From: Candidatus Nitrotoga sp. SPKER
GTDB taxonomy: Bacteria; Pseudomonadota; Gammaproteobacteria; Burkholderiales; Gallionellaceae
Direction of reading: 5' to 3'
Length of the DNA: 64,000 nucleotides
Assembly: GCA_003402285.1 (NCBI GenBank)
Contig: QFXG01000031.1
Location: forward strand, 104,713 to 168,712
The notes beneath the pieces are model-generated. The model saw nothing but the letters and a program-made list of their open reading frames with translations, ran no database searches and was not told the origin of the DNA. Made by a program: the position numbers and the translations under genes. Of this stretch, positions 34,340-54,153 are shown piece after piece. How positions within the stretch are numbered: the stretch's first letter is position 1; the number at the start of each line of letters is the position of its first letter.

Positions 34340-35098
34340 CTATAAAGTAGCTGCCATTAGGCCATCGTCTTTCGTCGCCTGTTCCGCCAGACAGGCATCC
34401 TCGCCCATCAATGGCGTGCTCGTTTCCGTGCTGTCAGGTGTCTTGGTTTTCGTCTTGCGCGACTTTTTCTTGGGTATTTCTACTACCTCGTCTGCGGGGA
34501 TTTCCGTTGCCGCATGGCCGGATTCTGCCTGAGCATCATGCTTGAGCTTCTGCGCGGCAGTGAACGCGCGCGCCAGGATCGCAGAAATTTCTGCCGAAAC
34601 CCCCAGCGTTTTCCTGCGCCATTGCCGCTCCAATGCGCCTTTCGCATCGTCGGCGATGAATCCGGCAAGCCATGTTGAATGCACCAATTCCATCAACCTG
34701 TCGAGTTCGCGGATCATTTGCAGATACTGGCCGGATTTGTTGCAGGTAATTTTGGCCTGATAAGTTGTGACGTTGGTGTAATTCACCCTGCCAATTTCAA
34801 TGCCGTTGTCCTCGGCGATTTTCTTGAGCCGCGCGCTTTCGTTGCGCAGATTCACAAACGCATTGTTGATCAGGTGATCGACCGCGCCATTGACGGTCAT
34901 TATTTCGTTATCGCTTTTGAGGACGGCTGGCAGAACAACGCTCAAGCTACGCAGTGCCGAATCGCATTTCTCGAAACCATTTTCAAAGACAGCCTGGGCA
35001 GGTGACGAATGTATCTTCACCTCCTGGGTCAGGAATGGATTGCTGAATTCATCAGCTTTTTTTCTGGGTGCGCCTTTTACTGCTTTACCGTTTTCCAA
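34340..35098 (-). CDS. DUF1845 (PFL_4669-family) conjugative element protein
   Basis: A 252-aa protein of the DUF1845 family found in integrating conjugative elements. The core includes SSPAQAVFENGFEKCD, NNAFVNLRNESARLKK and LMELVHSTWLAGFI; the tail is Lys/Thr-rich (PKKKSRKTKTKTP). The track start (TTG 35131) is less likely than TTG 35098, which has AAGGAG six bases upstream. The gene is divergent from the leader-bearing maintenance block. Its molecular role is not established; a regulatory role has been suspected for relatives but I cannot show it here. Confidence 0.8.
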   Translation of the reverse strand: MENGKAVKGAPRKKADEFSNPFLTQEVKIHSSPAQAVFENGFEKCDSALRSLSVVLPAVLKSDNEIMTVNGAVDHLINNAFVNLRNESARLKKIAEDNGIEIGRVNYTNVTTYQAKITCNKSGQYLQMIRELDRLMELVHSTWLAGFIADDAKGALERQWRRKTLGVSAEISAILARAFTAAQKLKHDAQAESGHAATEIPADEVVEIPKKKSRKTKTKTPDSTETSTPLMGEDACLAEQATKDDGLMAATL

Positions 35099-35199
35099 GA
35101 ATCTCTCCTTTGCGGTTGAGGAACAAAACAACAGCGCTAATACAAAGGCTGATAGTGAAACAGTGCTTCAGGAAAATCTGATCGAAAGTCGGCGATTTT

Positions 35200-35212
35200 G
35201 CGGATTATCCGC
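35200..35212. promoter_or_regulatory. Short dyad in the divergent control region
   Basis: GCGGA-tta-TCCGC lies between the divergent DUF1845 gene and the first leader of the maintenance block. The 35099-35270 stretch holds no gene, so this is a candidate operator. Evidence is the symmetry and position only. Confidence 0.3.
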
Positions 35213-35270
35213 ATGGAAGAAAGAATAAAACCGGTGTAGTGTCTGCCTCATCTTGCTTCATGTGCTTAAT

Positions 35271-35331
35271 GCCTTGAGCTGATATTGGCGGCTGACCAAT
35301 CAAAACAAACAGAAGACGAGCAATCGTCATA
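35271..35331 (+). ncRNA. Conserved upstream leader block, copy 1 of 3
   Basis: GAGCTGATATTGGCGGCTGA is followed by CCAATC, an A-rich single-stranded run AAAACAAACAGAA and a hairpin GACGA-GCAA-TCGTC with a GNRA loop. The block is nearly identical at 46438-46499 and clearly related at 53512-53590. ATTGG...CCAAT can form a second small stem. It stands directly ahead of leader A. A structured regulatory RNA domain is inferred. Confidence 0.6.
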
Positions 35332-35404
35332 ACCACCCAGCGGGGATATCGTTCCCCGCAAGGGTCATGGTGTCTCCGTTTTTTTTCATAAAAAGGAGAA
35401 CACC
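35332..35404 (+). promoter_or_regulatory. Repeated leader, copy A (before 26-aa ORF)
   Basis: GCGGGGA-N6-TTCCCCGC forms hairpin 1. CATGGTGTCTCC (35366-35377) is complementary to GGAGAACACCATG (35395-35407), which contains the ribosome site and start codon, with one bulged A; the T8 and A5 runs extend the stem. The translation start would be masked in this fold. Confidence 0.7.
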
Positions 35405-35485
35405 ATGGAACTTGTCATTATCGCTTGCTGCATCAGTGGCTACACCCTCAGCCGTCCAATTGTCTGGATGCTGGGGTTGAACTAA
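35405..35485 (+). CDS. 26-aa hydrophobic peptide with its own leader
   Basis: Too short for the track. ATG 35405 follows leader A and AAAAGGAG, encoding MELVIIACCISGYTLSRPIV plus six residues, ending TAA 35485. The product is hydrophobic with two adjacent cysteines and could be a small membrane protein. The full leader upstream and another leader immediately after the stop argue that it is translated. It could alternatively be a leader peptide. Confidence 0.5.
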   Translation: MELVIIACCISGYTLSRPIVWMLGLN

Positions 35486-35486
35486 A

Positions 35487-35554
35487 TCACCCACGCGGGG
35501 ACACCTCCCCGCCAAGGGTTTGTGTCCCCCTTTTTTTCAAAGAGGAGGCACAAA
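35487..35554 (+). promoter_or_regulatory. Repeated leader, copy b (before RecE-like gene)
   Basis: GGGGACAC (35497-35504) pairs perfectly with GTGTCCCC (35522-35529), followed by a T-run, so it reads as an intrinsic terminator. TTTGTGTCCCC also pairs with GGAGGCACAAA of the ribosome site at 10 of 11 positions. The two pairings use the same strand and exclude each other. Confidence 0.7.
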
Positions 35555-36367
35555 ATGAAACGCATCGTCAGACATTTGCCTATACAGGTTTACCACTCCG
35601 GTGAGGCAATATCACACAGCGGGATTGTTCAGTTACTCAAGTCTCCCGAACATTACCTGCAATACAAAACGGGATCAGCCGAGCCAACGCCAGCAATGGA
35701 ATTCGGTTCGGCATTCCACAGCTTTATCCTGGAACCCGAGGCTTTTTCAAAAGGTTATGTGCTCGCGCCGAAGTTTGACCGACGCACCAAGGAAGGCAAG
35801 GAAACAGCCGCAAAGTGGGATGTTGAAAATGCGGGCAAGACACCCTTGACCGCAGAGCAGATGGACACACTTGTCGCAATGCGGGTAAGCGTTTTCAATC
35901 ATGCGGGCGCAGCCAGAATGCTTAACGATGGCGAAGCCGAGACATCCTTGTTCTGGACTGATGACTACACGGGATTGCCGTGCAGGATACGTCCAGACTG
36001 GATGTGCGAGTACGGCATGGCAGACCTTAAAAGCTGCTGCGGTGCGAGCAAAGACAGTTTCTCCAAAGCGATAGCCAATCTTGGCTATGACGTGCAGGCC
36101 GCTTTTTACACGGATGGCATGAAGGCGGTGACTGGAAAAACGGTCAGCTTTCACTTTATCGCAGTGGAAAAGAATGCACCATTTTCGACGGCCTGTTACA
36201 TCGCAAGTCAGGAAATGATCGAAGTCGGGCGTGCAAAGTATCGCGGCGCGCTTGAGTTGCTGAAATGGTGCCAGGAAAACAAACAGTTCCCCGGCTATCA
36301 ACCGAACGGCGAGATCGAGACGATTGATCTTCCGCGCTGGGCAGCAAACTTCGATATCGAAGCGTAA
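35555..36367 (+). CDS. RecE-like PD-(D/E)XK exonuclease (DUF3799-type)
   Basis: A 270-aa nuclease. ATG 35555 follows AGGAGG of leader b; the track start lies inside the leader. The run HSGIVQLLKSPEHYLQYKTG and the catalytic core RPDWM...MADLKSC (Asp, then Asp-Leu-Lys) match the RecE/YqaJ-type fold, with a downstream YDVQAAFYTDG helix. Such 5'-3' exonucleases pair with RecT annealing proteins; recT lies 7 kb downstream in the same block. Known ICEs use these pairs to generate hybrid elements by recombination. Confidence 0.8.
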   Translation: MKRIVRHLPIQVYHSGEAISHSGIVQLLKSPEHYLQYKTGSAEPTPAMEFGSAFHSFILEPEAFSKGYVLAPKFDRRTKEGKETAAKWDVENAGKTPLTAEQMDTLVAMRVSVFNHAGAARMLNDGEAETSLFWTDDYTGLPCRIRPDWMCEYGMADLKSCCGASKDSFSKAIANLGYDVQAAFYTDGMKAVTGKTVSFHFIAVEKNAPFSTACYIASQEMIEVGRAKYRGALELLKWCQENKQFPGYQPNGEIETIDLPRWAANFDIEA

Positions 36368-36370
36368 CAA

Positions 36371-36442
36371 CAACCCTATCGGGGACACGTCCCCGACAAG
36401 GGCTCGTGTCCCCTTTTTTTTATTTCAAAAAGGAGACACAAA
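36371..36442 (+). promoter_or_regulatory. Repeated leader, copy c (before membrane protein gene)
   Basis: GGGGACAC (36381-36388) pairs perfectly with GTGTCCCC (36406-36413), followed directly by eight or more Ts. This is terminator-grade and lies just after the RecE-like stop. The GTGTCCCC strand can alternatively pair with GGAGACAC of the downstream ribosome site. Confidence 0.7.
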
Positions 36443-36703
36443 ATGGGCATCTTGATCTTGTTTGGCATCGCATTGGCAGTTTATTGGGGCATTCGGGTCG
36501 TGGTGGCGTTTATCAATTCACGCGCCAGGGCAAAGCTTGCGGCCGAGATTAAATCGGCATCAATGCCGAACGAGCAAAACTGGGCAGGACTTGACACACC
36601 CACATTCATCCGGCGTGGGATAGCCATTCCCATTCTGGCTGAAAAGAAAAAGAAGCGCATCCGCAGAGCAAAAGCTGCGGACGCACCGGCTTGCGTTAAT
36701 TAG
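36443..36703 (+). CDS. Small membrane-anchored protein
   Basis: An 86-aa protein with one N-terminal membrane segment (ILILFGIALAVYWGIRVVVA) and a basic C-terminal tail (EKKKKRIRRAKA) likely facing the cytoplasm. No family recognised. It has its own leader (copy c) and is followed by leader d, so it is an independent expression unit of the maintenance block. Confidence 0.65.
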   Translation: MGILILFGIALAVYWGIRVVVAFINSRARAKLAAEIKSASMPNEQNWAGLDTPTFIRRGIAIPILAEKKKKRIRRAKAADAPACVN

Positions 36704-36704
36704 C

Positions 36705-36776
36705 CAACCACCCACGCGGGGATGTCATGCCCCGCAAGGGGCATGGTGTCTCTGCTCATCCGAGTATGGAGGCATC
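36705..36776 (+). promoter_or_regulatory. Repeated leader, copy d (before 69-aa gene)
   Basis: CATGCCCC-GCAA-GGGGCATG is a perfect 8-bp stem with a GNRA tetraloop. The following GGTGTCTC is partly complementary to GGAGGCATCATG of the ribosome site and start. The T-run of other copies is missing here. Confidence 0.65.
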
Positions 36777-36986
36777 ATGCAACAAAAAATCAAACCCAAA
36801 GCTCTCAAGATCGCCCTGGATGCTTTTCGCGCAGACCCGTCACTAGGGGCGCGTCAGGCCAAATCACTTTTCTCGGAAATCATCACCCATTTGCAGGCGG
36901 GCATGTCCGATGAAGCTGTTTTGCAGGAAGTTCTCAAAAAGAATCGCCCGACAACATTGCCAACCGGCACGTTGACGCTGTTCTGA
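36777..36986 (+). CDS. Small helical protein of unknown function
   Basis: A 69-aa protein, mostly helical (PKALKIALDAFRADPSLGAR, then QAKSLFSEIITHL). No family recognised. ATG 36777 follows GGAGG. It is flanked by leaders d and e, which supports it as a real gene. Confidence 0.6.
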   Translation: MQQKIKPKALKIALDAFRADPSLGARQAKSLFSEIITHLQAGMSDEAVLQEVLKKNRPTTLPTGTLTLF

Positions 36987-36989
36987 ATC

Positions 36990-37059
36990 CACCAACCCGG
37001 GGACATCGTTCCCGCAAGGGGCATGGTGTCTCCGTGCTTATTAACAGCAAGGAGACACC
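36990..37059 (+). promoter_or_regulatory. Repeated leader, copy e (perfect start-codon mask)
   Basis: CATGGTGTCTCC (37022-37033) is perfectly complementary over 12 bp to GGAGACACCATG (37051-37062), which contains both the Shine-Dalgarno and the ATG. After a 1x1 mismatch the stem continues with TGCT/AGCA. CCC-GCAA-GGG forms an upstream GNRA hairpin. This is the clearest start-masking copy. Confidence 0.75.
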
Positions 37060-37698
37060 ATGAAAAAAATTTTTCATTTCTACGCCGACCCCGGTCACGG
37101 CTGGCTCGCCGTCAAGAAACACTACCTGCATAGTTTTGGCATAGCCTCTCAGATCACGCCATACAGCTACCAACGTGGCGATACGGCCTATCTGGAAGAG
37201 GATTGCGACTTGTCAGTTTTCCTGGCTGCACTCAAGGAAGCCGACATCAGGACGCATCACACTGATTGTCGATCCAGGATTCGCAGCTATGAATCGTATC
37301 GCTGCGAAGATTCCAGTCTGTGCAAGATCGAAAAAGTGTCCGAAGGCCGTTGGCTGGCACGAAACGCAGAAGGTGAACCTATCGGCGAGGTCTTCGGCAT
37401 TAAAGGAAAGTTTCAGGCGCAAACCATGAGAGGCGTTTTTGTTGCAAATGGCAGAACGTTGTACATGGCGGCTAACCTTTTATCTTCTGCTCACTACCAT
37501 GTGGTCGCCACAGTTCGTGATCCACGTACCAACGAGGGAATGAAGGGTGGCTCAACGCTGGGATATGACACCGAGTCGCGCGATATTGCCTTGCATCAGG
37601 CAAGGCAATGGGCGAGCGATGGCTACTGGGCATCGGTGTACGACAAGGTGTCCGGTGAAGTTCTCTATGACTTCTCTCCGAAAGGAGGTGTGCAATGA
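37060..37698 (+). CDS. Hypothetical phage/ICE-type protein
   Basis: A 212-aa soluble protein. The N-terminal half (HFYADPGHGWLAVKKHYLHS, then YLEEDCDLSVFLAAL) looks like a conserved phage/ICE hypothetical family; the C-terminal half (after about 90) may be a second unit. No catalytic motif seen. It heads a coupled set of three genes with a single leader, overlapping the next by four bases. Confidence 0.65.
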   Translation: MKKIFHFYADPGHGWLAVKKHYLHSFGIASQITPYSYQRGDTAYLEEDCDLSVFLAALKEADIRTHHTDCRSRIRSYESYRCEDSSLCKIEKVSEGRWLARNAEGEPIGEVFGIKGKFQAQTMRGVFVANGRTLYMAANLLSSAHYHVVATVRDPRTNEGMKGGSTLGYDTESRDIALHQARQWASDGYWASVYDKVSGEVLYDFSPKGGVQ

Positions 37699-37991
37699 GG
37701 CATACACAAGGTACCTGGCATAACATCGCCAACACCGAAATCATGGCGCGTTTCCCAAACCAGAATGGCGATCACATCGCAACGGTCTGGGCGAATGGAG
37801 AATCAGAAACAGCAGCGAATGCAAGACTCATCGCTGCCGCACCTGATTTGCTCGAAGCGCTCATCATGGCCGAACTCTTTATGCTCGGTTTTGATGGGGA
37901 CGAAACGCAAGAAGGTATGTCCAGCAAGTTGGTTCAGATCCGTGCCGCCATCGCAAAGGCCACCAAGGGAGGCAGCAATGCCAACCCCTAA
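37695..37991 (+). CDS. Small phage-type hypothetical protein
   Basis: A 98-aa protein overlapping its neighbours by 4 and 14 bases. NARLIAAAPDLLEAL is a motif widespread in small phage and element proteins of unknown function, usually downstream of an N-terminal strand region like GTWHNIANTE. The role is unknown. Confidence 0.65.
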   Translation: MRHTQGTWHNIANTEIMARFPNQNGDHIATVWANGESETAANARLIAAAPDLLEALIMAELFMLGFDGDETQEGMSSKLVQIRAAIAKATKGGSNANP

Positions 37992-38328
37992 AACCTTTGA
38001 TGGCTACAAGCGCATAACCTTCAGATTCAACGAAGGGTGGAAGGGCGACGATGAGCATGAGTACGTCGGTAAATTCCGAATTCTCAAAATCAGGCGCGTC
38101 GCCAACACTGACACAAGCAACGGAGAGGCGGAAGGTCGCATCTATACCGTAGCAGCACCAAGAGGCGCATCCGAAGCGGACGTTGCCAACGTTCTTCGAG
38201 GGGCTTTCACTTGGCATTGTCGGTGCGAGCATGACTGTTGCGGACATCTGCTGACAGGTATTTATTTGATCCGTCGAACAAAGCGCAGGGAATGGTTGGT
38301 TGAGGTCGTGCGCGGTAATAACGTGTAA
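37978..38328 (+). CDS. Hypothetical protein with Cys/His cluster
   Basis: A 116-aa protein. The track frame begins upstream, but ATG 37978 overlaps the previous gene by 14 bases and is the sensible start. A cluster WHCRCEHDCCGH (four Cys, three His) suggests a bound metal. The C-terminus is basic (RRTKRREWLVEVV). Unknown family. Confidence 0.6.
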   Translation: MPTPKTFDGYKRITFRFNEGWKGDDEHEYVGKFRILKIRRVANTDTSNGEAEGRIYTVAAPRGASEADVANVLRGAFTWHCRCEHDCCGHLLTGIYLIRRTKRREWLVEVVRGNNV

Positions 38329-38342
38329 CAACACAGGAGCGA

Positions 38343-38370
38343 TGGGCATGAGTGATTTTTTTCATGCCCA
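38343..38370 (+). terminator. Hairpin with T-rich loop after the 3-gene unit
   Basis: TGGGCATGA and TCATGCCCA form a perfect 9-bp stem with loop GTGATTTTTT, 14 bp after the stop at 38328. The Ts are inside the loop rather than after the stem, so termination efficiency is uncertain. Confidence 0.4.
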
Positions 38371-38389
38371 GAGCACTATCTAGTTTTTT

Positions 38390-38465
38390 CAAAAACCCTA
38401 CCGGGGACACAATCCCCGTTAGGGAAGTGTCCCCTTTTTTATTGCTGTCAAAAAAGGAGGCACAA
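38390..38465 (+). promoter_or_regulatory. Repeated leader, copy f (before DarB-like gene)
   Basis: GGGGACAC (38403-38410) pairs perfectly with GTGTCCCC (38427-38434), followed by TTTTTT. An inner TCCC-cgtta-GGGA stem nests within it. GTGTCCCC can also pair with the AGGAGGCAC ribosome site upstream of ATG 38466. Confidence 0.7.
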
Positions 38466-41400
38466 ATGAAATTGAAAGCAATCGCTGCGGCAATCATGTG
38501 GTTGCCCGGTTTTGAGCCAGAAGACAACGCCCCGATTGTTTTGCAAGGGCCGGTTGTCACGCAACGCGAAGCCGAGATCATCCCGTTTTCCAAAGCGCTG
38601 GCTGCCGAAGTCGCAACAATCAAAGCAGTATGGCCGCGTCTCGATGCCGTCACGTTTTTCGGTTTATCCGGCAACGTCACCAAATTCGAGGCTAACATTG
38701 CCGCAATCGAATGCCTGCGCAAGCTGGAGTCCGAGAAGAGGCAAGCGACCACGGAAGATCGGGAAGTGCTCAACCGTTACACCGGTTGGGGCGGCATTCC
38801 GCAAACATTCAATGATGACCAGAAAGAACAATCGTGGGTTGCCCGCGCTGAACGCCTCAAGGCATTGCTGAGTGAAGATGAGTACCAATCTGCTGAAGCC
38901 AGCACACCAAACGCCCACTACACCGCCCTGGAAGTCATCGAGGCGACGTGGAGTATGGTGGAACGGTTGGGTTTCAAGGGTGGCCGCATTCTTGAGCCAT
39001 CAGCCGGTGCTGGTTATTTTCTTGGCGCGATGCCGCAGGAGATTGCCCAGCAAAGCACCGTCACAGCAATTGAACTCGATCAACTATCGGCGCGCATCCT
39101 GAAGGCTCTTTACGGGGATTTCGGGGTAAACGTCATACAGAGCGGGTTTGAGGCGGCAAAGCTGCCGGATGAGTTTTACGATCTGGCTATCTCGAATGTT
39201 CCGTTCGGGAATTACCAGGTGCCGGAACTGCGCAACGTTCCCTACGCCAACTTCCTGATCCACGATTACTTCTTTGCGAAAGCGATGGAAGTTGTCAGGC
39301 CGGGCGGGTTGGTTGTGTTCATCACGTCCTCCGGGACGCTGGACAAGTGTGACGACAAGGTGCGGCAATATCTTGGCAGCAAGGCTAATTTGGTGGCAGC
39401 AGTTCGCCTGCCCAATACCGCTTTCAAGAGAATCGCCAACACCGAAGTGACGACCGACATACTGGTGCTGCAAAAACCGCTGGAAGGGCGTAGCAGTAAA
39501 AAAGGCTGGATGGAAACACTCGTTCTGCCGGAAACATCCCCGATCTACGGGGAGAGCAGGGAATACTGGAGACATCAACAAATATCGTGCAACCAGTATT
39601 TTGCCGAGAACCCTCAATGGGTCATCGGCAAGCTTGCACTGACTGAAAACGGATACCAGAAATCGACTGGCTGCATATTCGAGGGCAACCTTGAAGCCGC
39701 ACTGGCCGAAAAGGTGTCCATGCTGCCGGAAGGTATCTACGCGGCGATTCGGGAAGTTGAAAAAACAAAAGCTGTTTTGCGTCTGGAGTACAACGCCCAG
39801 GGTCGCCCAGGTTTCAGGGTGATTGACGGCAAGGTGTATGAAACAAATGACGGGTTGGAAGCGTCGCAATTCATCGCGCCGCAAAAAACGCTGGAACGCA
39901 TCGCTGGCATGTGCGGTATCCGTGATGCGGCACGCAAGATTGTTCGGTCACAAGTTGAAACCGGGGATGAGGCGATTCTTGCCGCTTACCGGTTGACACT
40001 GAATATCGAATACGACCACTTCGTCGCAAAATGCGGGAGCATCCACACCAAGGCAAACAGGGCCGCTTTCAAAGGTGATCCCGATCTGCCGTTGCTGATG
40101 TCGCTGGAACGCTGGGATGGGGAAACTCAGACCGCCGAAAAGGCAGACATCTTTTTTCAGCGCACGGTGGGGATGTTCAAAAAGGTCGATCATTGCGAAA
40201 CCTCGGAAGAGGCGTTGCTGGTCAGCCTGACCGAGTGTGGCCACGTCGTAGAAAACCGGATTGGCCAATTGCTCGGGAAACCGGGCAGCGAAGCCATGAA
40301 GGAGCTCGAAGCGTTGGGCGCGGTATTCCTCGATCCGCAAACCGGCAATTGGGAAACCAAAGACAGTTATCTTGCCGGTAATGTCCGTAATAAATTATCT
40401 GCTGCCAGGGTGTCGGGTGAGCGTTTCAGCCGAAATGCGCAAGCATTGGAAGCCGTGATTCCCGATGATCTGACACCAGGCGAGATCGGTGCGCGCATCG
40501 GATCCACCTGGATACCGACAAGCGATTACGAAGCATTCCTTGATGAAACTCTGGAGTGCAACGGAAACACCGTGACGTTCAACCAGGCAGCAGGCGCGTG
40601 GAATATCGACACGCATTACAGTACCAAATCGTCGATAGCAGCTACGCAGACGTATGGAACCGAGCGGGTAAATGCAGCAACCCTGTTCGACCAGGCATTG
40701 AATCAAACCGTGCCGACCGTGCATGATCCTGATCCCGAGGATCGTGACAAGCGCGTGGTCAACCAGAAGGAGACCATCGCGGCACGCGAGAAGCAGCAGT
40801 CGCTCAAGGAGAAATTTCAGGAGTGGTTGTGGTCCGATCAGGAACGAGCACTAAGACTGGCAAGGCTTTACAACGATACGTTCAACAGCGTTGTGCCGCG
40901 CAGGTTTGATGGTCGGCATCTGGTGTTGCCGGGATATTCCCGGATAGTCAGCCTGCACGAGCATCAGCGGGATGCCATCTGGCGTATTGTTGCGAGTCAG
41001 CTAAACACCTTGCTTGCCCATGTTGTTGGGGCTGGCAAGACGCTGACTTGCATCTGTGCCGGCATGGAGCTTCGTCGCCTAGGCAAGGCAAGCAAACCGA
41101 TGTATGTGGTGCCAAACCACATGCTTCACCAGTTTGCAGCCGAGTTCCTGCGTGCGTATCCCGGCGCCAACATCCTGATTGCGTCGAAAGACGATCTTCA
41201 GGGGGACAAGCGCCGTCAGCTTCTTTCCCGTATTGCCACCGGCGATTGGGATGGTGTGCTGATTACGCATGCTTCGTTCGAGCGCATCAAGATGAGCGAT
41301 GGATTCATGGAGGAATATATCCAGAATGAAATCGATCTCATTGAAGATGCCATTCGCGCTGAAAAGCAGGATCGCGGTAACCGCATCATCAAGGAGCTGG

Positions 41401-43373
41401 CCCGTGCGAAAAAAGCATGGGAAGCAAAACTGGCAAAGCTGTCAGGTAAAAACAAGAAGGATGAAATTCTGTCCTTCGAGCAATTGGGCATCGACTGGAT
41501 GTTTGTCGATGAAGCGCATCTGTTCAAGAACTTGTGGAGGTTCAGCAAGATGACACGGGTTGCCGGATTGCCTAACAGCAATTCGGAGCGGGCATTCGAC
41601 ATGTTCGTCAAGACTCGCAGCGTCATGGCAAAACACAAGGGCAGAGCAGGCGTGGTGTTCGCGACTGGCACGCCGGTGTCCAACAGCATGGCCGAAATGT
41701 GGGTCATGCAGCGATACCTGCAACCGAAGACGATGGAAGCCTTTCAGGTGGGGATGTTTGACACCTGGGCAGGCAACTTCGGCGAGTCGGTAACGGCTCT
41801 GGAGCTGGCTCCGGATGGTAGAGGCTACCGGATGCATACCCGTTTCGCGAAGTTCGTCAATCTTCCAGAACTGATGTCCATGTTCGGTGAGGTGGCGGAT
41901 ATTCGCACTGCGGAGATGCTGAAATTGCCGGTGCCAGATGCGCACAAGGAAACTGTAACGATCAAGCCGACAGATGACTTGAAAGCACTCGTCCAAACCC
42001 TCGTGGAGCGGGCAGAAGCAATAAGGAACGGCAACGTCAGTCCCTCTGTGGACAACATGCTGGCCGTTACCAACGATGGCCGCAAGGCCGCGTTGGACAT
42101 GCGTCTGATCGATTTATTCGCCGAGGTCGAGAATGGCAAGGTGAACCATTGTGCCGAGAAAGTATTCGGTATCTGGGGGGAAACCATGCTGTTCCGTGGA
42201 ACACAAATTGTGTTCTGCGACCTGTCCACTCCGGTGGAAAACGGTCGGTTCAGCGTGTATCAGGCGTTGCGTCAAAATCTGGTAGAGAGAGGCGTTCCAA
42301 TCGAGGACATCGCCTTCATTCACGACTACGAGAGCGATGCAGCCAAGGAAGAGCTTTTCAAGGCCGCGCGTGATGGGCGTATCCGCATCCTTCTGGGCAG
42401 CACGCAGAAGATGGGGGTCGGGACAAACATCCAGACCCGGTTGGCGGCACTGCATCATCTGGATGCCCCATGGCGGCCATCTGATGTGGAGCAAAGGGAG
42501 GGGCGCATCATTCGCCAGGGCAACCTGAACGAGCGTGTGCGCATCTACCGTTATGTAACCGAAGGCTCGTTCGATGCCTACATCTGGCAAACGCTTGAGA
42601 CAAAGGCGAGATTCATCGCACAAGTCATGCAAGGGGATACCGGGATGCGTAGCGCAGAGGATGTTGAATTGGCCGCGTTGTCTTATGCGGAGGTGAAAGC
42701 CTTGGCGTCAGGCAATCCGCTGGTGCTGGAAAAAGCGGGGGTCGATACCGAACTTGCCAAGCTGTCGTTGCTCAGGTCTCAATGGGATCAGCAGCAATGG
42801 CGCAACAAGCAGGAACTGGCAACCTTGCCAGGTCGCATCGAGCGCGTCCAGGCCAGAATTACCGGCATTGAGTCCGACATGGCTTCCCGGCAAGACGTAT
42901 CTGGTAGCAAATTCCTGATGGAAGTAGAGGGGAAACGCTATACAGATCGCGCCGAAGCGGGAAAGGCACTTTTGTACGCTGTGTATGGAGTGAAGTCAGG
43001 CGGTGATCGGATAGTGGGTCAAATTGCCGGGTTCCGTGTTGCCGTGCAGTTGTCGGCATTACAGGAAATGGGCGGACAACTGGTTGTCCTGGGAGGTGTC
43101 GAGTATCGATGCGGCCAGGCGGAATCAGCGCAAGGTTTTGTGCGTGTACTCGAAAACTCACTCAACAGGATGGAACAGTGGCTCCTGGAAGAGCAGGAGA
43201 ATTTGGCCAGAACCGAGAAACGCATGGCCGACATTCAGGCCGAAGCCGCAAAGCCGTTTGACAAGGCTGCGCGGCTGGAGTGGTTAAAACAACGGCAACG
43301 AGAAATCGAAGCCGAGCTCGATTTGAGCAAGGGCGAAAACACCGCTGTTGATGAAACAGAGGAAATAGCCTGA
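38466..43373 (+). CDS. N6-adenine methylase fused to SNF2-like helicase (DarB-like)
   Basis: A 1635-aa protein. The N-terminal methylase has the SAM-binding EPSAGAGYF (177-185) and catalytic NVPF (244-247, an NPPF variant). A helicase follows: P-loop VVGAGKT (about 853-859), Walker B FVDEAHLF (about 1012) and motif VI EQREGRIIRQGN (about 1342). The C-terminus is coiled-coil rich. The fusion resembles P1 DarB-type and plasmid antirestriction methylase-helicases, which protect incoming DNA. ATG 38466 follows AGGAGG of leader f; the track start lies inside the leader. The exact role in this element is inferred. Confidence 0.85.
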   Translation: MKLKAIAAAIMWLPGFEPEDNAPIVLQGPVVTQREAEIIPFSKALAAEVATIKAVWPRLDAVTFFGLSGNVTKFEANIAAIECLRKLESEKRQATTEDREVLNRYTGWGGIPQTFNDDQKEQSWVARAERLKALLSEDEYQSAEASTPNAHYTALEVIEATWSMVERLGFKGGRILEPSAGAGYFLGAMPQEIAQQSTVTAIELDQLSARILKALYGDFGVNVIQSGFEAAKLPDEFYDLAISNVPFGNYQVPELRNVPYANFLIHDYFFAKAMEVVRPGGLVVFITSSGTLDKCDDKVRQYLGSKANLVAAVRLPNTAFKRIANTEVTTDILVLQKPLEGRSSKKGWMETLVLPETSPIYGESREYWRHQQISCNQYFAENPQWVIGKLALTENGYQKSTGCIFEGNLEAALAEKVSMLPEGIYAAIREVEKTKAVLRLEYNAQGRPGFRVIDGKVYETNDGLEASQFIAPQKTLERIAGMCGIRDAARKIVRSQVETGDEAILAAYRLTLNIEYDHFVAKCGSIHTKANRAAFKGDPDLPLLMSLERWDGETQTAEKADIFFQRTVGMFKKVDHCETSEEALLVSLTECGHVVENRIGQLLGKPGSEAMKELEALGAVFLDPQTGNWETKDSYLAGNVRNKLSAARVSGERFSRNAQALEAVIPDDLTPGEIGARIGSTWIPTSDYEAFLDETLECNGNTVTFNQAAGAWNIDTHYSTKSSIAATQTYGTERVNAATLFDQALNQTVPTVHDPDPEDRDKRVVNQKETIAAREKQQSLKEKFQEWLWSDQERALRLARLYNDTFNSVVPRRFDGRHLVLPGYSRIVSLHEHQRDAIWRIVASQLNTLLAHVVGAGKTLTCICAGMELRRLGKASKPMYVVPNHMLHQFAAEFLRAYPGANILIASKDDLQGDKRRQLLSRIATGDWDGVLITHASFERIKMSDGFMEEYIQNEIDLIEDAIRAEKQDRGNRIIKELARAKKAWEAKLAKLSGKNKKDEILSFEQLGIDWMFVDEAHLFKNLWRFSKMTRVAGLPNSNSERAFDMFVKTRSVMAKHKGRAGVVFATGTPVSNSMAEMWVMQRYLQPKTMEAFQVGMFDTWAGNFGESVTALELAPDGRGYRMHTRFAKFVNLPELMSMFGEVADIRTAEMLKLPVPDAHKETVTIKPTDDLKALVQTLVERAEAIRNGNVSPSVDNMLAVTNDGRKAALDMRLIDLFAEVENGKVNHCAEKVFGIWGETMLFRGTQIVFCDLSTPVENGRFSVYQALRQNLVERGVPIEDIAFIHDYESDAAKEELFKAARDGRIRILLGSTQKMGVGTNIQTRLAALHHLDAPWRPSDVEQREGRIIRQGNLNERVRIYRYVTEGSFDAYIWQTLETKARFIAQVMQGDTGMRSAEDVELAALSYAEVKALASGNPLVLEKAGVDTELAKLSLLRSQWDQQQWRNKQELATLPGRIERVQARITGIESDMASRQDVSGSKFLMEVEGKRYTDRAEAGKALLYAVYGVKSGGDRIVGQIAGFRVAVQLSALQEMGGQLVVLGGVEYRCGQAESAQGFVRVLENSLNRMEQWLLEEQENLARTEKRMADIQAEAAKPFDKAARLEWLKQRQREIEAELDLSKGENTAVDETEEIA

Positions 43374-43478
43374 AGAAAATTCAAGTCGCTGCGTAATGCA
43401 GTGACGTGAAGAGGCCGCTGGCCTTGCCGGAAGGTAAAACAGCATCAAGCATCGTATCGGGCAACCGGTTCGATTCAA

Positions 43479-43557
43479 GCAACCCCACGGGGACATCCAT
43501 TGTCCCTCTGGGGCGTGGTGTCTCCGTTTTTTTGTTTTAACAAAAAGGAGAAACACC
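43479..43557 (+). promoter_or_regulatory. Repeated leader, copy g (before recT)
   Basis: TGGTGTCTCC (43516-43525) pairs with GGAGAAACACCA (43547-43558) around a two-base bulge. The middle is itself a perfect stem TTTTTGTT-tt-AACAAAAA, so a hairpin of about 18 bp can occlude the ribosome site and reach into the start codon. A GC-rich hairpin region lies upstream. Confidence 0.72.
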
Positions 43558-44613
43558 ATGGCATTACAAGCACTCAAAAACATCAACCGTACCGCCGCAG
43601 CCAATAACGAGCAACCGCAGGGCTTCCCGGCAATGCTTGAACAGTTCAAGGGAGAAATCGCCCGCGCGCTGCCCAAGCACATCAATCCTGACCGCATGGC
43701 ACGCATTGCGCTCACGGCGTTTCGCATGACCCCGAAGCTGGGGGAGTGCGACCCGCGCAGTGTGTTTGCCGCCGTCATCCAGTCCTCGCAACTTGGACTG
43801 GAAGTGGGGCTGATGGGCGAAGCTCACCTTGTCCCGTTTGGCAACCAATGCCAGCTCATTCCGGGTTACACCGGATTGATGAAGCTGGCGCGTCAGAGTG
43901 GATTGGTGCAGGACATCTATGCACACGAGGTGCGCATGAACGACACGTTCGCGCTAAAACTCGGCATGGAACGAAGCCTGGAACACGAACCGCTGACTGC
44001 ACCGGGCGGCTTCCCCGCGTCTGATGAAGAACGCGGAGAAGTGGTTGGCTTCTATGCGGTAGGCGTCCTCAAGGATGGCAGCAGGACGTTTGTCGCAATG
44101 GGGCGCAAAGAAGTCGAAAGCATCCGTGATGGCAGTCGCGGCTACCAGGCAGCCAGAAAATACAAGAAGGAATCCGTCTGGGATACCGACTTTGTGGCGA
44201 TGGGGCTGAAAACGGTCATCCGGCGCATCTGCAAGTTCTTGCCTAAATCACCCGAGCTGGCAACAGCACTGGCGATGGATGAAAAAGCGCATGCAGGCCA
44301 AGGTCAAAACCTGAATCTGAACGACGTGATCGACGGCAGTTACGCGCCGGTTGATGTCGCTGAGGGGGCGGAAGAGATCAAGGACAAACCACCAGCCAAA
44401 GCCGAGAGCCAACCGCAATCGGCAAAGGCAGTGAGCAAACTCGAAAAGCTGGACAAGGTTGTCGCGGCTTTGAAATCAGCCAGCACTGTTGAGGCATTGG
44501 ATGAGATTTATATCCGTGCCGAAGTGGATCTGGAGGATGCAGAGCTTGATGTCGCGCTGCGCGAGTATCGTAAATGCAAAGACGCGATCACTGAACAAGG
44601 CAGCCTGGTTTAA
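43558..44613 (+). CDS. recT: RecT-family single-strand annealing protein
   Basis: A 351-aa protein. The RecT core is clear: [40 protein letters not shown] and [18 protein letters not shown], with [16 protein letters not shown] near residue 225. The C-terminal ~90 residues are a linker plus a small helical unit not typical of phage RecT. It anneals complementary strands and would work with the RecE-like nuclease and the SSB encoded just downstream. Confidence 0.93.
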
Positions 44614-44687
44614 CCACCCTCACGGGGACATCGTTCCCCTCTGGGGAATGGTGTCTTCTTTTTATATTTTATCAAAGGAGAAATACC
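44614..44687 (+). promoter_or_regulatory. Repeated leader, copy h (before ssb)
   Basis: TTCCCC-tct-GGGGAA is a perfect 6-bp hairpin nested between GGGGACA and TGTCTTC. ATGGT can pair with ACCAT at the start codon; the middle pairing is weaker than in other copies. TTCTTTTTATATTTT follows as an interrupted T-run. Confidence 0.6.
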
Positions 44688-45113
44688 ATGTTGAACAAAG
44701 TGCAATTAATCGGCCGTCTTGGAAAAGACCCGGAAATTCGTTACACCCAGGGGAGCGAAGCAGTCGCAAATGTTTCCCTGGCAACTTCCGAGTCATGGAA
44801 AGACAAGAATGGTGAGAAACAGGAGAAAACAGAGTGGCACAACCTCGTGTTCTATCGCCGCCTGGCAGAAATGGTTGGTGAGCACCTCAAGAAGGGCGCG
44901 CTAATCTATGTCGAAGGCAAGATCACGACCGAGAAATATCAGAAAGATGGGGAGGATCGTTACGTCACAAAAATTGTTGTCTCCGAGATGAAAATGCTCG
45001 GCGGCAACAAGACGGATGATGAGTCCCACGTTGCAGCACCCGCACCCGCTGCCAACAAAGGCAAAACCACAAAGGCAGGCCAAAAGCCCAAATTGGACGA
45101 AGGCTCTTTCTAA
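44688..45113 (+). CDS. ssb: Single-stranded DNA-binding protein
   Basis: A 141-aa SSB with the OB fold ([43 protein letters not shown]). The linker is Ala/Pro/Lys-rich and the acidic tip is reduced to DEGSF, weaker than the usual DDDIPF. Element-encoded SSBs support strand transfer and recombination. Its leader follows the recT stop directly. Confidence 0.95.
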
Positions 45114-45116
45114 AAT

Positions 45117-45256
45117 CAACCACCCACCGGGGGAATCATCCCCCATGGGGTGCTTCTTTGCCGGTGGTTTTACAACCACCCGCCCACACGGGACACACCA
45201 ATACATCCCGCTGGGTGCTTTGGCGTGTCCCATGCGGGATAGACCAAGGAGGCATC
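45117..45256 (+). promoter_or_regulatory. Tandem diverged leaders, copy i (before primase)
   Basis: Two leader-like units in series. In the first, CCACCGG and CCGGTGG enclose GGGGGAatcaTCCCCC and precede TTTTAC. In the second, GGGACACACCAA pairs with TTGGCGTGTCCC and ATCCCGC with GCGGGAT. GGTGCTTTGG is partly complementary to the ACCAAGGAGGCATC ribosome site. This is the only doubled copy in the set. Confidence 0.55.
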
Positions 45257-46324
45257 ATGGAAGCGAAGGAATTGAAGTTGTTGGCCGCAGGACGCTGGGA
45301 AAGCATTGTTGCATCGCTTGCCCCGCAGCTTGGCCAGGCAGTAGAGCGCACGCCGAATCATGTACCGTGCCCCGTGCATGGCGGGACAGATGGATTCAGG
45401 CTGTTTCGGGATTTTGAAGATACGGGTGGCGGTGTGTGCAACACATGCGGCATCCATCACGATGGATATACGCTGCTCATGTGGGCGAACGGATGGGATT
45501 TTCTAACTACCCACCGCGCCATACACGACATGCTGTTGGGCAGCGGCGAGAAGTATTACGCGCCCTTGCCAGCCAAAAAAGTGTGTGTCAAAAAAGAGGA
45601 AAACAGGCAGGACATTCGCGATTCCCTGAATCATGTATGGAAAGTCAGTGTTCCTCTGACCTCACCCGAAGCGCGGGCAGCAAGGTTGTATTTTGCGAAC
45701 CGTGGAATCGGGCAGATCGACTATCGAAAAGTTGATGGCAGGATGATCCGTTTTGTCCCTTCGCTTGAGTATTACGAAGAGGGAAAGCCGGTCGGCACGT
45801 ACCCCGCCATTGTCGCGATGGTGTGCGATGCAAACGGTCGTCCTTCGACCGTGCATCGCTCATACATCACACACGATGGCGAGAAAGCCAAAGTCCCGTC
45901 CCCCAAGAAAATGATGCGGCACTGTGCCGATAATTTGTTTGGTGCGATGAGGATAGCGACACAAGGTGATAGCAGGGTATTGGCAATCACAGAAGGCATC
46001 GAAACAGCACTGGCCGTCATGGGTGCTTTTAACGTGCCTGTATGGGCTGCCGGCAACGCCTACTTGCTGGAAAACTTCGTGCCGCCAAAAGGTGCTGATG
46101 TGGTGATCTATGCCGACAAAGATCGGCCTTCCAGAATTCATCCGGAAGGTCACGGGTTGAGCTCGGCGAAGTCACTGGTAAAACGCCTGTGGAAAGAAGG
46201 CGTAAAGGCCAGCATCAAGTTGCCTGACACAGATATTCCGCGAGGGATGAAATCTGTTGACTGGCTGGATGTGGTCAATGGCGACGTGCATCAGGCATTC
46301 GCCAAAAAAACCGCCATACGGTAA
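45257..46324 (+). CDS. Toprim-domain primase with zinc-binding N-terminus
   Basis: A 355-aa protein. ATG 45257 follows AGGAGG; the track start lies in the leader. The N-terminus has primase zinc ligands CPVHGG and CNTCGIH. Toprim motifs follow: ITEGIETALAV (Glu) and VVIYADKDRP (Asp-x-Asp), with HGLSSAKSLVKRL. It resembles the phage P4/TraC-like primases of ICEs, which prime replication or complementary-strand synthesis after transfer. Confidence 0.82.
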   Translation: MEAKELKLLAAGRWESIVASLAPQLGQAVERTPNHVPCPVHGGTDGFRLFRDFEDTGGGVCNTCGIHHDGYTLLMWANGWDFLTTHRAIHDMLLGSGEKYYAPLPAKKVCVKKEENRQDIRDSLNHVWKVSVPLTSPEARAARLYFANRGIGQIDYRKVDGRMIRFVPSLEYYEEGKPVGTYPAIVAMVCDANGRPSTVHRSYITHDGEKAKVPSPKKMMRHCADNLFGAMRIATQGDSRVLAITEGIETALAVMGAFNVPVWAAGNAYLLENFVPPKGADVVIYADKDRPSRIHPEGHGLSSAKSLVKRLWKEGVKASIKLPDTDIPRGMKSVDWLDVVNGDVHQAFAKKTAIR

Positions 46325-46365
46325 GCAAGCCAGTTTCATGGGCATGCTTGTCCAGGGCTGTTTTA

Positions 46366-46385
46366 CCCCGCTTGCGGGGCTTTTT
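46366..46385 (+). terminator. Intrinsic terminator after primase gene
   Basis: CCCCGC-tt-GCGGGG followed by C and TTTTT, 42 bp after the primase stop: a textbook factor-independent terminator. It ends one transcription unit, after which conserved block copy 2 and leader j begin another. Confidence 0.8.
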
Positions 46386-46426
46386 ATGACGCATTCGATG
46401 AGTGCGCCATAAAAAGTGAATTCATC

Positions 46427-46499
46427 CTCAAGGCTATGCCTTGAGCTGATATTGGCGGCTGACCAATCAAAACAAACAGAAGGCGAGCAATCGTTATAA
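46427..46499 (+). ncRNA. Conserved upstream leader block, copy 2 of 3
   Basis: A perfect hairpin CTCAAGGC-tat-GCCTTGAG (46427-46445) opens the block. Next come CTGATATTGGCGGCTGACCA, the A-rich run and the hairpin GGCGA-GCAA-TCGTT. Relative to copy 1 both hairpin changes (A to G, C to T) keep pairing as G-U, while the loop and the flanking ~45 nt are unchanged. That is the pattern of a conserved RNA structure. Confidence 0.65.
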
Positions 46500-46565
46500 C
46501 TACCCTATCGGGGATACATCCCCGACAGGGCTTGTGTCCCCTTTTTTATTTCAAGGAGACACAAA
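46500..46565 (+). promoter_or_regulatory. Repeated leader, copy j (before radC)
   Basis: GGGGATAC pairs with GTGTCCCC through one U-G, followed by TTTTTT. Compared with copies c and f, the C to T change in the left strand keeps the stem through the wobble. GTGTCCCC can also pair with GGAGACAC upstream of ATG 46566. Confidence 0.7.
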
Positions 46566-47165
46566 ATGAATATCCAACATTGCAGCACACCTGATTTATT
46601 GTCCGTCCTGGTAGGAAAAGGGATGGCTAAAAAGATATCACAAGTTCCACTTTCCGTTTTATTTGGAATGCGTGCAAATCGTCAGGAAATGATTTGCGAA
46701 AACGAAGCTCAGTATGTGCCCGCACCTATCATCTCCGCAGCCAAAGAGTTGTTTGCGCGGGCACTCAAAGAGGACATTAGCATCCATCCGATTTCATTTA
46801 ATTCACCCAATGTGGTCAAGGATTACTTGAGGCTGGTGTTGGGTGGACGGCAGCAGGAAGTATTCATGGTGCTGTTTCTCGATGCCCAGCATCGTCTTAT
46901 CGCTTCGGAAGAGCTGTTTCACGGGACGCTCACACAAACCAGCGTGTATCCACGCGAGGTTGTCAAACGCGCCCTGATACACAACGCGGCAGCGGTAATG
47001 CTGAGCCACAACCATCCTTCAGGGGTGGCAGAGCCAAGCAGCGCCGACCGCATGCTAACTGATGCACTGAAGCAAGCCCTTGGATTGGTAGATGTTCGAG
47101 TTCTCGATCACATTGTGATCGGCGAGCAAGAAGCATTGTCTTTTGCCGAACGAGGTTTGATATGA
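46566..47165 (+). CDS. radC: RadC-like JAB/MPN domain protein
   Basis: A 199-aa protein with the RadC JAMM metal motif [15 protein letters not shown] and preceding [23 protein letters not shown]- and phage-borne RadC proteins of this type are common; their exact role (DNA repair, antirestriction or a peptidase activity) is unsettled. It overlaps the next gene by four bases. Confidence 0.85.
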
Positions 47166-47396: not shown

Positions 47397-47463
47397 AACC
47401 TACGCGGGGACACTTCCCCGCAAGGGGCATGGTGTCTCCGTTTTCCATATAAAGGAGCGCGCC
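47397..47463 (+). promoter_or_regulatory. Repeated leader, copy k (covarying start mask)
   Basis: CATGGTGTCTCC (47428-47439) pairs with GGAGCGCGCCATG (47454-47466). Here the ribosome-site strand has GCGCC instead of ACACC, yet pairing is kept through two U-G pairs plus one bulged C. CCCC-GCAA-GGGG forms the GNRA hairpin. Confidence 0.7.
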
Positions 47464-48189
47464 ATGTTTTTTGAAAAGACGTTAGACAAGCGTAGCAAAA
47501 AAGTGATGATTGATTTTGTGACTGGCCATTACAGGTACAACACAATGAACAGTTGGAATCGCTCGACAAGCTATGCGCACAACATAAAGTTGCACAAACT
47601 GGGTCTGACTTCCGAGCAATTGAATGCAGCATACGACATGCTGCAAACGGATTTTTGGGACGAAATCGACCAGCCAATTGCAGACTTCACCTCAGAAATG
47701 AGTGGGAGATACACGATTGGAACCAATGGGCGATCCAGTGGCTACCTCGTCCTTTACAACAGCAAGTATGAGTTGACTGGACACAAGTCGCACTGTCGCA
47801 CCTGCGGCCAAAGAAATTACCGTTATGTTTATACGCCTGACGCTACGGCAGAAGGCGTGATAACGGCTGCGGTGATTGCCAGGGATTACACCATTGGCAA
47901 CAGGTGTGGCGCATGCGGCGCTGAAGGAGAATATGGCCGCGTCAATTACACGTTGCCACCAAAACGCTTGTCGGTGTATCCCGGAAAGAGCATCGACCAG
48001 AATGAGGAATTTTCTGAATGGTCGATGTCAGAACTTCGTAATCACGTTGAACTGGTTCGCCGGTTCGATCAGGCGTGTGACGAAATTCGGGATAATTTCA
48101 TTGAGCTGATTAGGAGTTGCAAGGTTGTCGAAGAGGTTGTAATGATTCCCAAGACCGTGAAGCGGATTGAATGCTGCCACGCATCTTGA
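47464..48189 (+). CDS. Hypothetical protein with CxxC zinc ribbon
   Basis: A 241-aa protein; ATG 47464 follows AAAGGAG of leader k, and the track start lies upstream in the leader. Two CxxC pairs, CRTCGQR and CGACGAEG, about 40 residues apart suggest one zinc ribbon. The N-terminal part is polar and aromatic-rich. The family is unrecognised. Confidence 0.65.
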   Translation: MFFEKTLDKRSKKVMIDFVTGHYRYNTMNSWNRSTSYAHNIKLHKLGLTSEQLNAAYDMLQTDFWDEIDQPIADFTSEMSGRYTIGTNGRSSGYLVLYNSKYELTGHKSHCRTCGQRNYRYVYTPDATAEGVITAAVIARDYTIGNRCGACGAEGEYGRVNYTLPPKRLSVYPGKSIDQNEEFSEWSMSELRNHVELVRRFDQACDEIRDNFIELIRSCKVVEEVVMIPKTVKRIECCHAS

Positions 48190-48228: not shown

Positions 48229-48297
48229 TAACCCACGCGGGGACACTTCCCCGCAAGGGCATGGTGTCTCCGTTTTTTTCATAAAAAGGAGAACACC
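48229..48297 (+). promoter_or_regulatory. Repeated leader, copy l (before ardC)
   Basis: CATGGTGTCTCC (48260-48271) pairs with GGAGAACACCATG (48288-48300) with one bulged A, and the T7/A5 runs extend the stem. GGGGACA (48239-48245) can instead pair with TGTCTCC. CCC-GCAA-GGG is the GNRA hairpin. Just upstream, ATTCGTCG and CGGCGAAT (48205-48226) form another stem. Confidence 0.7.
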
Positions 48298-48889
48298 ATG
48301 CAAGAAAAATCAAATCGCGCCAACTGGGGCAAATTGTTTTCGGATGCCCTTTCCTGCCCTGGAAAGGTTTCTGAGGCGTACTCGGTATTTCACGATTACA
48401 GCCTTGGCAATGCCATCCTCGCCGCTCTGCAATTAACCGTTAAGGGGCTGCCACTGTCCCCAATCGCTTCCTTCAATAAATGGAAGAAATTGGGGCGGTG
48501 CGTGAAAAAAGGCGAGAAGGCAATTGCATTGGTCATGCCTGTTACCGTCAAAACCAAGTCCAGTGATGAGGTTGAAAACGGTGCTGGATTCAATGACAAC
48601 ACCAGGGAAGTCAGAAGTTCAGGACGCACGATGTTTGTGCTGAAAAATATCTGGTTTTCTTTGGATCAAACAGAGGGAGCGGACTACGCCAACGAGGTGA
48701 CGATTCCAGAGTGGAGCAAGGTGCAAGCCTTGTCCGGTCTGGGAATCACGGAACAACGTTTTGAGTTGCTGGATGGAAACACGCAAGGGTATTCCATTCC
48801 CAACAAGAAACAGCTTTCCGTGTCTCCCGTAGCGCTGATGCCGTGGAAGACGCTTTTCCATGAAATGGCTCACTGCCTGATGCACTCGA
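48298..48889 (+). CDS. ardC: ArdC-like antirestriction protein, exon 1
   Basis: The first 197 codons plus one base of an ArdC-type gene. An N-terminal ssDNA-binding domain (NWGKLFSDALSCPGKVSEAY, then NKWKKLGRCVKKGEKAI) is followed by the zincin motif HEMAH (188-192). A group II intron starts at G48890, ten bases after the codon for Met195. The unspliced frame adds three residues and stops at 48900. ArdC proteins bind ssDNA and protect entering plasmid DNA. Without splicing, the third metal ligand would be lost. Confidence 0.88.
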
Positions 48890-49507
48890 GTGCGACGTGA
48901 TGTCGTGTAAATAATTGTTTATTTGGTGATAAACGCTAAATAAACCTGTCGTTTTCCCGACAGTAGTCTAGGAGGGCAGGCGTGGCTGGTAACGGCTGGG
49001 TCTGAAGCCCCTCTGACAATGTAGCCCACTCCGAAAGGATGAAGTCGAAGCTGCGAGGCGGAAACGGAACTGCGAGCATTACGTGGTGGGGAACTAGGCT
49101 TGGAAGTAAGGTGAATATATGTGAAGTGGTGATAAATTCCGTGAATCAGAAGCTGCCAAAAATGCTAACAGGCAGTAACCAAAAATGGTAAGTGAGCGGT
49201 CTTGATTTTTCGAGTTAATCAAGCGGAAACAAAGCCTCACCGGAAAATAGCCACCACCTAACCTTCCAGTGTTATTTGCATGGAACACGGTAAGCCCGTA
49301 TATCCGCCCACATAGGGCAAGCCGACCGCAAGGGAAGCCGATGGATGCGCGGGTAGAGGATGTCAGAAAAAGCGAACGCTGTCCTGTAAGGGGATGGATA
49401 GGGATTGAGGCGCAAGCCAACATTATCCTGTCCGAAAGGAAGCAGACTTCTGATTGGTCTCTCTTTGCAAGAGAGTATGTAGAACTTCAACAACGGAGGA
49501 AAAGCAA

Positions 49508-51208: not shown

Positions 51209-51216
51209 AGAGGCTT

Positions 51217-51291
51217 GAGCCGGATGCGGGGAAACTCGCAAGTCCGGTTCTTAGGGGGGAGCGGCGCAGTAATGCGCTGTTCCTACCCGAC
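51217..51291 (+). ncRNA. Group II intron domains V-VI and 3' splice site
   Basis: Domain V is 34 nt, a hairpin opening GAGCCGGATGCGGG with a GAAA loop and closing CAAGTCCGGTTC. Domain VI follows with a GGGGGAG...TTCCTACCC stem; the bulged A at 51285 is the expected branch point, six bases before the 3' end at C51291. Confidence 0.85.
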
Positions 51292-51654: not shown

Positions 51655-51731
51655 TCACCCAAGGGGGATGCATCGAGCCCCCAAGGGGCTTGGTCTATCC
51701 CTCAAGGGCACTAACCAAAGAGGGATACAAA
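51655..51731 (+). promoter_or_regulatory. Diverged leader, copy m (before parB), compensatory start mask
   Basis: TATCCCTC (51696-51703) is perfectly complementary to GAGGGATA (51720-51727), the ribosome site of parB. In the other copies the equivalent pair is GTGTCTCC/GGAGACAC, so both strands have changed together. AGCCCCC-aa-GGGGCT is the GC-rich hairpin. No T-run follows. Confidence 0.65.
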
Positions 51732-53426: not shown

Positions 53427-53432
53427 ACTTCA

Positions 53433-54139: not shown

Positions 54140-54153
54140 GGGGGGATGACGAA

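Follow-up and report, generated by a model that had tools for sequence, protein, structure and literature searches.

Leaders and accompanying features in the window

The window, the whole 64-kb stretch of DNA that was analysed, corresponds to a Candidatus Nitrotoga-like mobile element. Between positions 35333 and 53669 it contains 13 clear copies of a short leader, each of which stops at the start codon of a separate gene, and a degenerate 14th copy is located at about 45112-45259. The genes behind the leaders include a 26-codon ORF, a DUF3799 nuclease gene, small ORFs, an SNF2-type helicase/N6-methylase gene (1637 aa; 100% identity to a protein of Candidatus Nitrotoga sp. HW29), recT, ssb, radC, an ORF without a Pfam match, ardC-like and parB-like genes, and the gene for PRTRC protein E. 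Leaders b, c, d, e, h and k start a few bases from the preceding stop codon. All strong matches to the leader model in the host's own genome lie inside this mobile element.

Four strands recur in each leader in the 5' to 3' order U, C, S and D. The leader begins with 5'-AACCC, followed by U (GGGGACA-like), a small loop, C (TCCCCGC-like), GGG, S (GGTGTCTCC-like), often a T-tract, and finally D, which extends from the Shine-Dalgarno sequence to the ATG. Three helices can be drawn from these strands: P1 is formed by U and C plus the flanking CCC/GGG (for example, GCGGGGA/TCCCCGC), P2 by U and S, and P3 by S and D. P2 is incompatible with both P1 and P3, which are compatible with each other. Since P1 rivals P2 for U, the upstream strand is, like S, common to two stems. 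The bit scores below refer to R1, a covariance model that was built from the window copies and contains P1 and P3; a second model, R2, was built from the R1 matches, and P2 is absent from every search model.

35264-35331, + strand: operon-head RNA upstream of leader a; 7-nt loop CGGCTGA, then AAACAAACAG
35333-35407, + strand: leader a, first in operon, before a 26-codon ORF (R1 79.9 bits; P1/P2/P3 by duplex energy)
35488-35557, + strand: leader b, before the DUF3799 PDDEXK-type nuclease gene (R1 70.2 bits; Pfam PF12684)
36372-36445, + strand: leader c, before an 86-codon ORF (R1 76.4 bits; sequence)
36381-36388, + strand: strand U of leader c, GGGGACAC, partner of C (P1) or S (P2) (sequence)
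36406-36413, + strand: shared strand S of leader c, GTGTCCCC, then T8 at 36414-36421 (sequence)
36432-36439, + strand: strand D of leader c, GGAGACAC, Shine-Dalgarno region, maskable by S (sequence)
36709-36779, + strand: leader d, before a 69-codon ORF (R1 60.4 bits)
36990-37062, + strand: leader e, with the mask CATGGTGTCTCC/GGAGACACCATG (R1 74.4 bits; inverted repeat I4)
38394-38469, + strand: leader f, before the 1637-aa helicase/N6-methylase gene (R1 58.9 bits; Pfam)
43480-43560, + strand: leader g, before recT (R1 64.8 bits; Pfam PF03837)
44615-44690, + strand: leader h, before ssb (R1 76.1 bits; Pfam PF00436)
45112-45259, + strand: leader i, degenerate or variant, before the toprim primase gene (weak R1 match at 45121-45166, E 0.36; by eye)
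46423-46497, + strand: operon-head RNA upstream of leader j
46501-46568, + strand: leader j, first in operon, before radC (R1 61.1 bits; Pfam PF04002)
47397-47466, + strand: leader k, before a 241-codon ORF without a Pfam match (R1 71 bits)
48230-48300, + strand: leader l, before the ardC-like gene (R1 81.8 bits; Pfam PF08401)
51657-51734, + strand: leader m, before the parB-like gene, with changes in both S and D (TATCCCTC / GAGGGATA) (R1 54.7 bits; Pfam PF02195)
53499-53565, + strand: operon-head RNA upstream of leader n
53593-53669, + strand: leader n, first in operon, before PRTRC protein E (R1 75.3 bits; Pfam PF19556)

The initial annotation concerned positions 36381-37062, and although the copies it named there are real, the set is far larger. 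As it had described, the P2 stem of copy c is a perfect 8-bp pairing of GGGGACAC (36381-36388) with GTGTCCCC (36406-36413) and is followed directly by T8 (36414-36421). The 12-bp start-codon mask reported for copy e was likewise confirmed, with CATGGTGTCTCC (37022-37033) perfectly complementary to GGAGACACCATG (37051-37062), and the repeat finder recovered it as inverted repeat I4, which has 17-nt arms that are 94% complementary. The upstream stem of copy e (GGGGACA/TGTCTCC) requires one G-U pair. Both stems of the original scheme, P2 and P3, are thus present, but that scheme had overlooked the third helix, P1.

Other features lie among the leader-bearing genes. A group II intron at 48945-51291, whose ends match RF02012 and RF00029 and which has a reverse-transcriptase ORF at 49454-51208, splits the ardC-like gene behind leader l. 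The leader-bearing genes are followed by a PRTRC cassette at 51732-57710 that encodes ParB-like, PRTRC protein E, Prok-E2_D, JAB and ThiF proteins. A 13-codon ORF with a Shine-Dalgarno-like sequence (38342-38383) ends 10 bases before leader f and overlaps the hairpin GGGCATGA...TCATGCCC; it is possible that this ORF is a leader peptide.

Conservation of the pairings and distribution of the leaders

Conservation of the helices was assessed by duplex energies: the value for a strand and its own partner was compared with the values for partners from other leaders of the same element, a shuffling of partners that preserves composition and the common GGAG/CUCC. For the window (n = 13), z was -3.3 for P1, -3.0 for P2 and -3.5 for P3, and shuffles as good as the own pairing numbered 12, 102 and 1 of 50,000, respectively. 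The corresponding z values were -6.6, -4.3 and -3.8 for a Sulfuricystis plasmid (L001, n = 12) and -9.3, -9.3 and -5.6 for a Delftia plasmid (L002, n = 24; 0 of 50,000 shuffles each), some leaders of the latter having a weak P3. A set of 105 distinct leaders from 16 other genome loci, all outside model building, gave -13.6, -11.7 and -11.3 (0 of 20,000 each), with values of -0.6, -2.5 and 0.0 for its reversed-strand and C:D controls. Leaders from pKLC102, ICEhin1056 and the Enterobacter and Comamonas plasmids (n = 30) gave -8.9, -8.0 and -5.2, again with 0 of 20,000 shuffles each. Over all sets the reversed-S control ranged from near zero to -3.6 and C versus D from 0 to -2.0; the reversed-S control was not wholly flat in small sets, reaching -2.1 in the analysis of the window, L001 and Delftia and -3.6 in the named elements.

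Leaders found with the covariance model are biased toward P3 because the model includes this helix. An unselected test took in every annotated gene start of five plasmids, 112 in total, and here too an upstream strand complements the gene's own Shine-Dalgarno/ATG region (z = -6.2, 0 of 20,000 shuffles; reversed control, z = -0.5). The same test gave z = -1.9 for 21 Rhodoferax transfer genes, and signals that weak are therefore not to be taken as leaders. The P3 own-partner tests together with the unselected test indicate that a strand pairing with the gene's own Shine-Dalgarno/start region is conserved, and the P2 own-partner tests indicate the same for an alternative pairing able to release the Shine-Dalgarno sequence. 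G-U pairs are common in the leaders, and complementarity is kept as the letters diverge. At the level of sequence, these comparisons show that the strands and structures P1, P2 and P3 are preserved by compensation across divergent copies. The central proposal of the initial annotation, in which a single strand S takes part in two exclusive stems, one terminator-like and the other masking the start codon, is strongly supported by these compensatory changes.

Searches with R1 and R2 found leaders at E<=0.001 in 47 of the 300 genomes sampled at order level, in 24 of 274 at class level and in 15 of 299 at phylum level; these samples overlap one another and include the own genome. The same layout with different letters occurs in the Sulfuricystis and Delftia plasmids and in Rhodoferax and Piscinibacter plasmids; the Delftia plasmid has about 24 leaders, which precede most of its genes. 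Leaders were also found in pKLC102, ICEhin1056, and Enterobacter and Comamonas plasmids, where they precede STY4534/DUF3577, radC, helicase and other genes, and in gammaproteobacterial loci the genes behind them resemble the STY4534-type replication module of these elements. Up to about 10-20 leaders occur per locus, nearly all on a single strand, and each is placed exactly at the Shine-Dalgarno/ATG of one gene on that gene's strand. Many Delftia leaders are 100-480 bases from the preceding annotated gene. Within the order sample, leaders occur in 9 of the 10 genomes that have Prok-E2_D and in 38 of the 290 without it, and the PRTRC cassette was rejected as sole carrier on the latter count. 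Phage origin was likewise rejected: a degenerate DNA pattern gave 74 stretches in viral contigs, almost none of which is backed by the covariance model.

Some leaders depart from the common arrangement. The leader of the toprim primase gene differs from the rest in L001 (5737), L002 (8029) and the window (45112-45259) alike: it is longer and of another form, and its U:S stem is also longer. Several leaders (L002 20001, 26016 and 33288; L145 12958; L147 16010) directly follow an intrinsic-terminator-like hairpin and T-run that ends at AACCC, which leaves no space for a promoter between the two.

A second structured element precedes the first leader of each operon. In PRTRC-type elements this head RNA consists of a hairpin with a 5-bp stem and a 7-nt loop, [CT][AG]GCTG[AG] (YRGCTGR), the conserved AAACAAACAG and another hairpin. 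It is also present in L001 (3804, 7346, 11474, 14970 and 17622) and in L005, L006, L009-L011, L013, L021, L023, L025, L026, L137 and L138. A search by loop and tail alone recovered 44 occurrences, and in every one of them the two five-base flanks are fully complementary, with differing letters. By pattern, 39 of the 44 have a P1-like sequence within about 110 bases downstream, and in four of the remaining five a model match lies just downstream. The head RNA had no Rfam match where scanned. The Rfam radC RNA (RF01754) is found immediately upstream of leaders in pKLC102 (L144; 15681-15828, 16758-16908 and 19286-19423, with leaders at 15838, 16939 and 19432) and in the Enterobacter plasmid (L146; 8329, 10263, 11174 and 14733), and it may be the operon-head counterpart in these two elements. 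Most leaders have no radC RNA directly upstream; none of the 13 leader-bearing genomes searched had an above-cut-off match, and the best match in the own genome (E 2.86) is located away from the leaders.

Predicted switching and alternative explanations

What could these leaders do? Following the 3' end of P2, T occurs at frequencies of 0.53-0.62 (about 0.60) at positions +1 to +5 and A at 0.11-0.17, and T drops to about 0.2 by +10 to +12; at matching distances from the ATG, 279 control genes have T frequencies of about 0.2-0.3. In leaders with long spacers, T is 0.65-0.69 at the P2 3' end versus 0.21-0.26 before the Shine-Dalgarno sequence. The T-tract is thus anchored at the 3' end of P2, and a terminator-like state is therefore supported on average. 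A count of at least 5 T in 8 was reached in just 58 of the 154 leaders, and the GC-rich elements L133 and L141 are without a T-tract, so that a GC-rich stem followed by a U-tract, as read from sequence, is a property of the family on average and not of these two elements. T-poor leaders retain P2 (z = -4.2) and P3 (z = -3.8), as do the GC-rich elements (z = -4.8 and -4.1), which implies that termination is not the sole function. The idea that the T-run serves mainly as partner of an A-run before the Shine-Dalgarno sequence was rejected as a general rule, given a z of -1.9 for spacer self-complementarity and the few T-run leaders that contain an A-run.

Segment folding at 25 C gave mean energies for P1 alone and P2 alone of -17.6 and -19.6 kcal/mol in the window, -25.5 and -23.8 in L001, and -18.2 and -19.5 in Delftia. 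P1 and P2 are within about 2 kcal/mol of each other on average, which places the choice between them at the time when S has been made and D has not. In 48 of 49 leaders P1 and P3 together are more stable than P2, the mean margin being 12-20 kcal/mol; the decision point would thus precede D, with a masked default thereafter. The initial annotation had S choosing between P2 and P3, and although these are indeed exclusive, the full-length RNA is predicted to adopt P1 and P3 and not a balance of P2 and P3.

We consider it probable, on these models, that the leader is a dual transcription and translation attenuator that is masked by default and opened by a trigger. Each leader would be a cis-acting RNA control unit for one gene of the mobile element. 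Hairpin P1 would form first, and S would then choose either U (P2, usually with a T-tract) or D (P3, the translation mask). Where the T-tract is good, early formation of P2 could halt RNA polymerase, and a transcript that escaped P2 would refold to P1 and P3 and be masked. As termination at P2 and masking by P1 and P3 are both off states, the on state would require a trigger: expression would follow if P1 were opened, or S captured, after passage of the polymerase, with P2 then holding S and the Shine-Dalgarno sequence free. From these pairings we infer that the leaders switch, terminate transcription and mask the start in vivo, as well as the direction of control and a trigger common to all leaders of an element. 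CsrA and ProQ were rejected as the trans factor since the own genome has no match to either family (PF02599 for CsrA; PF04352 for ProQ/FinO).

An alternative explanation is a purely translational switch, in which P3 masks the start, P2 is the anti-mask and the T-tract is just an unstructured or S1-binding stretch. The persistence of P2 and P3 in T-poor leaders and GC-rich elements is what such a switch would predict, but T is much commoner than A at +1 to +5, and in long-spacer leaders the T-tract remains next to P2 instead of directly preceding the Shine-Dalgarno sequence; we regard this explanation as unlikely. The geometry of stem and T-tract would equally suit a plain transcription attenuator in which S resembles a Shine-Dalgarno complement merely through the CUCC/GGAG makeup of both. 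This is very improbable, since shuffling retains GGAG/CUCC and yet P3 reaches z values of -5 to -11, the unselected test over all gene starts gives z = -6.2, and the mask follows gene-specific letters to the start codon, as in CGATATTCC/GGAATATCG of ICEhin1056.

Translational coupling would place the trigger in the ribosome, which on finishing the upstream gene opens P1 so that P2 forms and the next start is freed. The six leaders close to an upstream stop codon are suitably positioned for this, but the distances of many Delftia leaders from the preceding gene are not, and the first leaders of operons come after the head RNA, where no ORF was recognised; coupling therefore seems quite unlikely. 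It is hardly credible that the repeats are DNA-level elements (protein operator, single-stranded DNA hairpin or dispersed repeat) instead of RNA control. The carrier elements are mobile, and leading-region genes are readable from single-stranded DNA, but the exact placement at one Shine-Dalgarno/ATG per gene on the gene's own strand, the common G-U pairs and the complementarity kept despite diverging letters all argue for RNA.

Our guess is that the head RNA may be a processive antiterminator. It is conceivable, if doubtful, that the leaders and the head RNAs, which in some elements would be radC RNA, form one RNA-only expression programme of a large family of conjugative elements, in which the head RNA lets polymerase or a factor pass P2 and the leaders gate the genes, allowing a joint switch-on. 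Well-studied elements such as pKLC102 and ICEhin1056, along with a broad proteobacterial sample, appear to carry an RNA device before many of their genes. If the leaders work as predicted, these genes would constitute a regulon under gene-by-gene control at the RNA level, which would account for dozens of accessory genes staying silent and then being switched on jointly. The leaders would also amount to a natural collection of three-way RNA switches, hundreds in number, whose sequences evolved independently.

Relation to known systems

No Rfam 15 family reached its gathering score over the leaders in the window, L001, L002, L129, L133, L135, L137 or L144-L147, and a scan of 35000-46500 down to E 5 gave none over leaders. 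A search of open-licence papers found no description of them. The radC RNA resembles the leaders in being a candidate cis-regulatory RNA of proteobacteria on the same elements, but it has 149 positions and another structure, and does not overlap the leader. It gains context here, as it stands at the head of operons with leader-bearing genes.

The leaders share their logic with translational riboswitches and protein-controlled leaders, S being the anti-Shine-Dalgarno strand, U the anti-anti-Shine-Dalgarno strand and C the strand that occupies U. They differ in that no conserved ligand-binding core of the riboswitch type was found: P1 is short, its letters and loop vary between leaders, and the recurrent parts are only the AACC at the 5' edge and the helix layout. 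They differ also in that a single element carries the unit many times, in front of genes unrelated to one another. LicT/SacY RAT-type attenuators consist of an intrinsic terminator with an overlapping antiterminator hairpin, and in both cases a terminator-like stem (P2 here) has its 5' strand overlapped by a short 5' hairpin (P1 here). Unlike the RAT type, the candidate leaders add a third stem that masks the start codon, many copies are without a T-tract, and no protein is assigned to them in the place of the antiterminator protein.

The "mobile attenuators" of Naville and Gautheret are terminators from the ends of IS elements and prophages that were exapted by host genes and are highly conserved in sequence (PMC2965389). 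These are likewise terminator-like elements of mobile DNA upstream of genes, but the leaders described here are internal to the element, divergent in their letters, used per gene and equipped with a mask. Some toxin mRNAs, such as those of Helicobacter type I toxin-antitoxin systems, contain metastable hairpins that sequester the Shine-Dalgarno sequence (PMC6733600), and they resemble the leaders in having alternative hairpins around this sequence, possibly formed sequentially during transcription. In contrast, the leaders are not on toxins, have terminator-like geometry and precede many cistrons per element. The logic of anti-Shine-Dalgarno, anti-anti-Shine-Dalgarno and attenuator is known; what appears to be new is the leader family, its use gene by gene across elements, and the combination of terminator and mask in one design.
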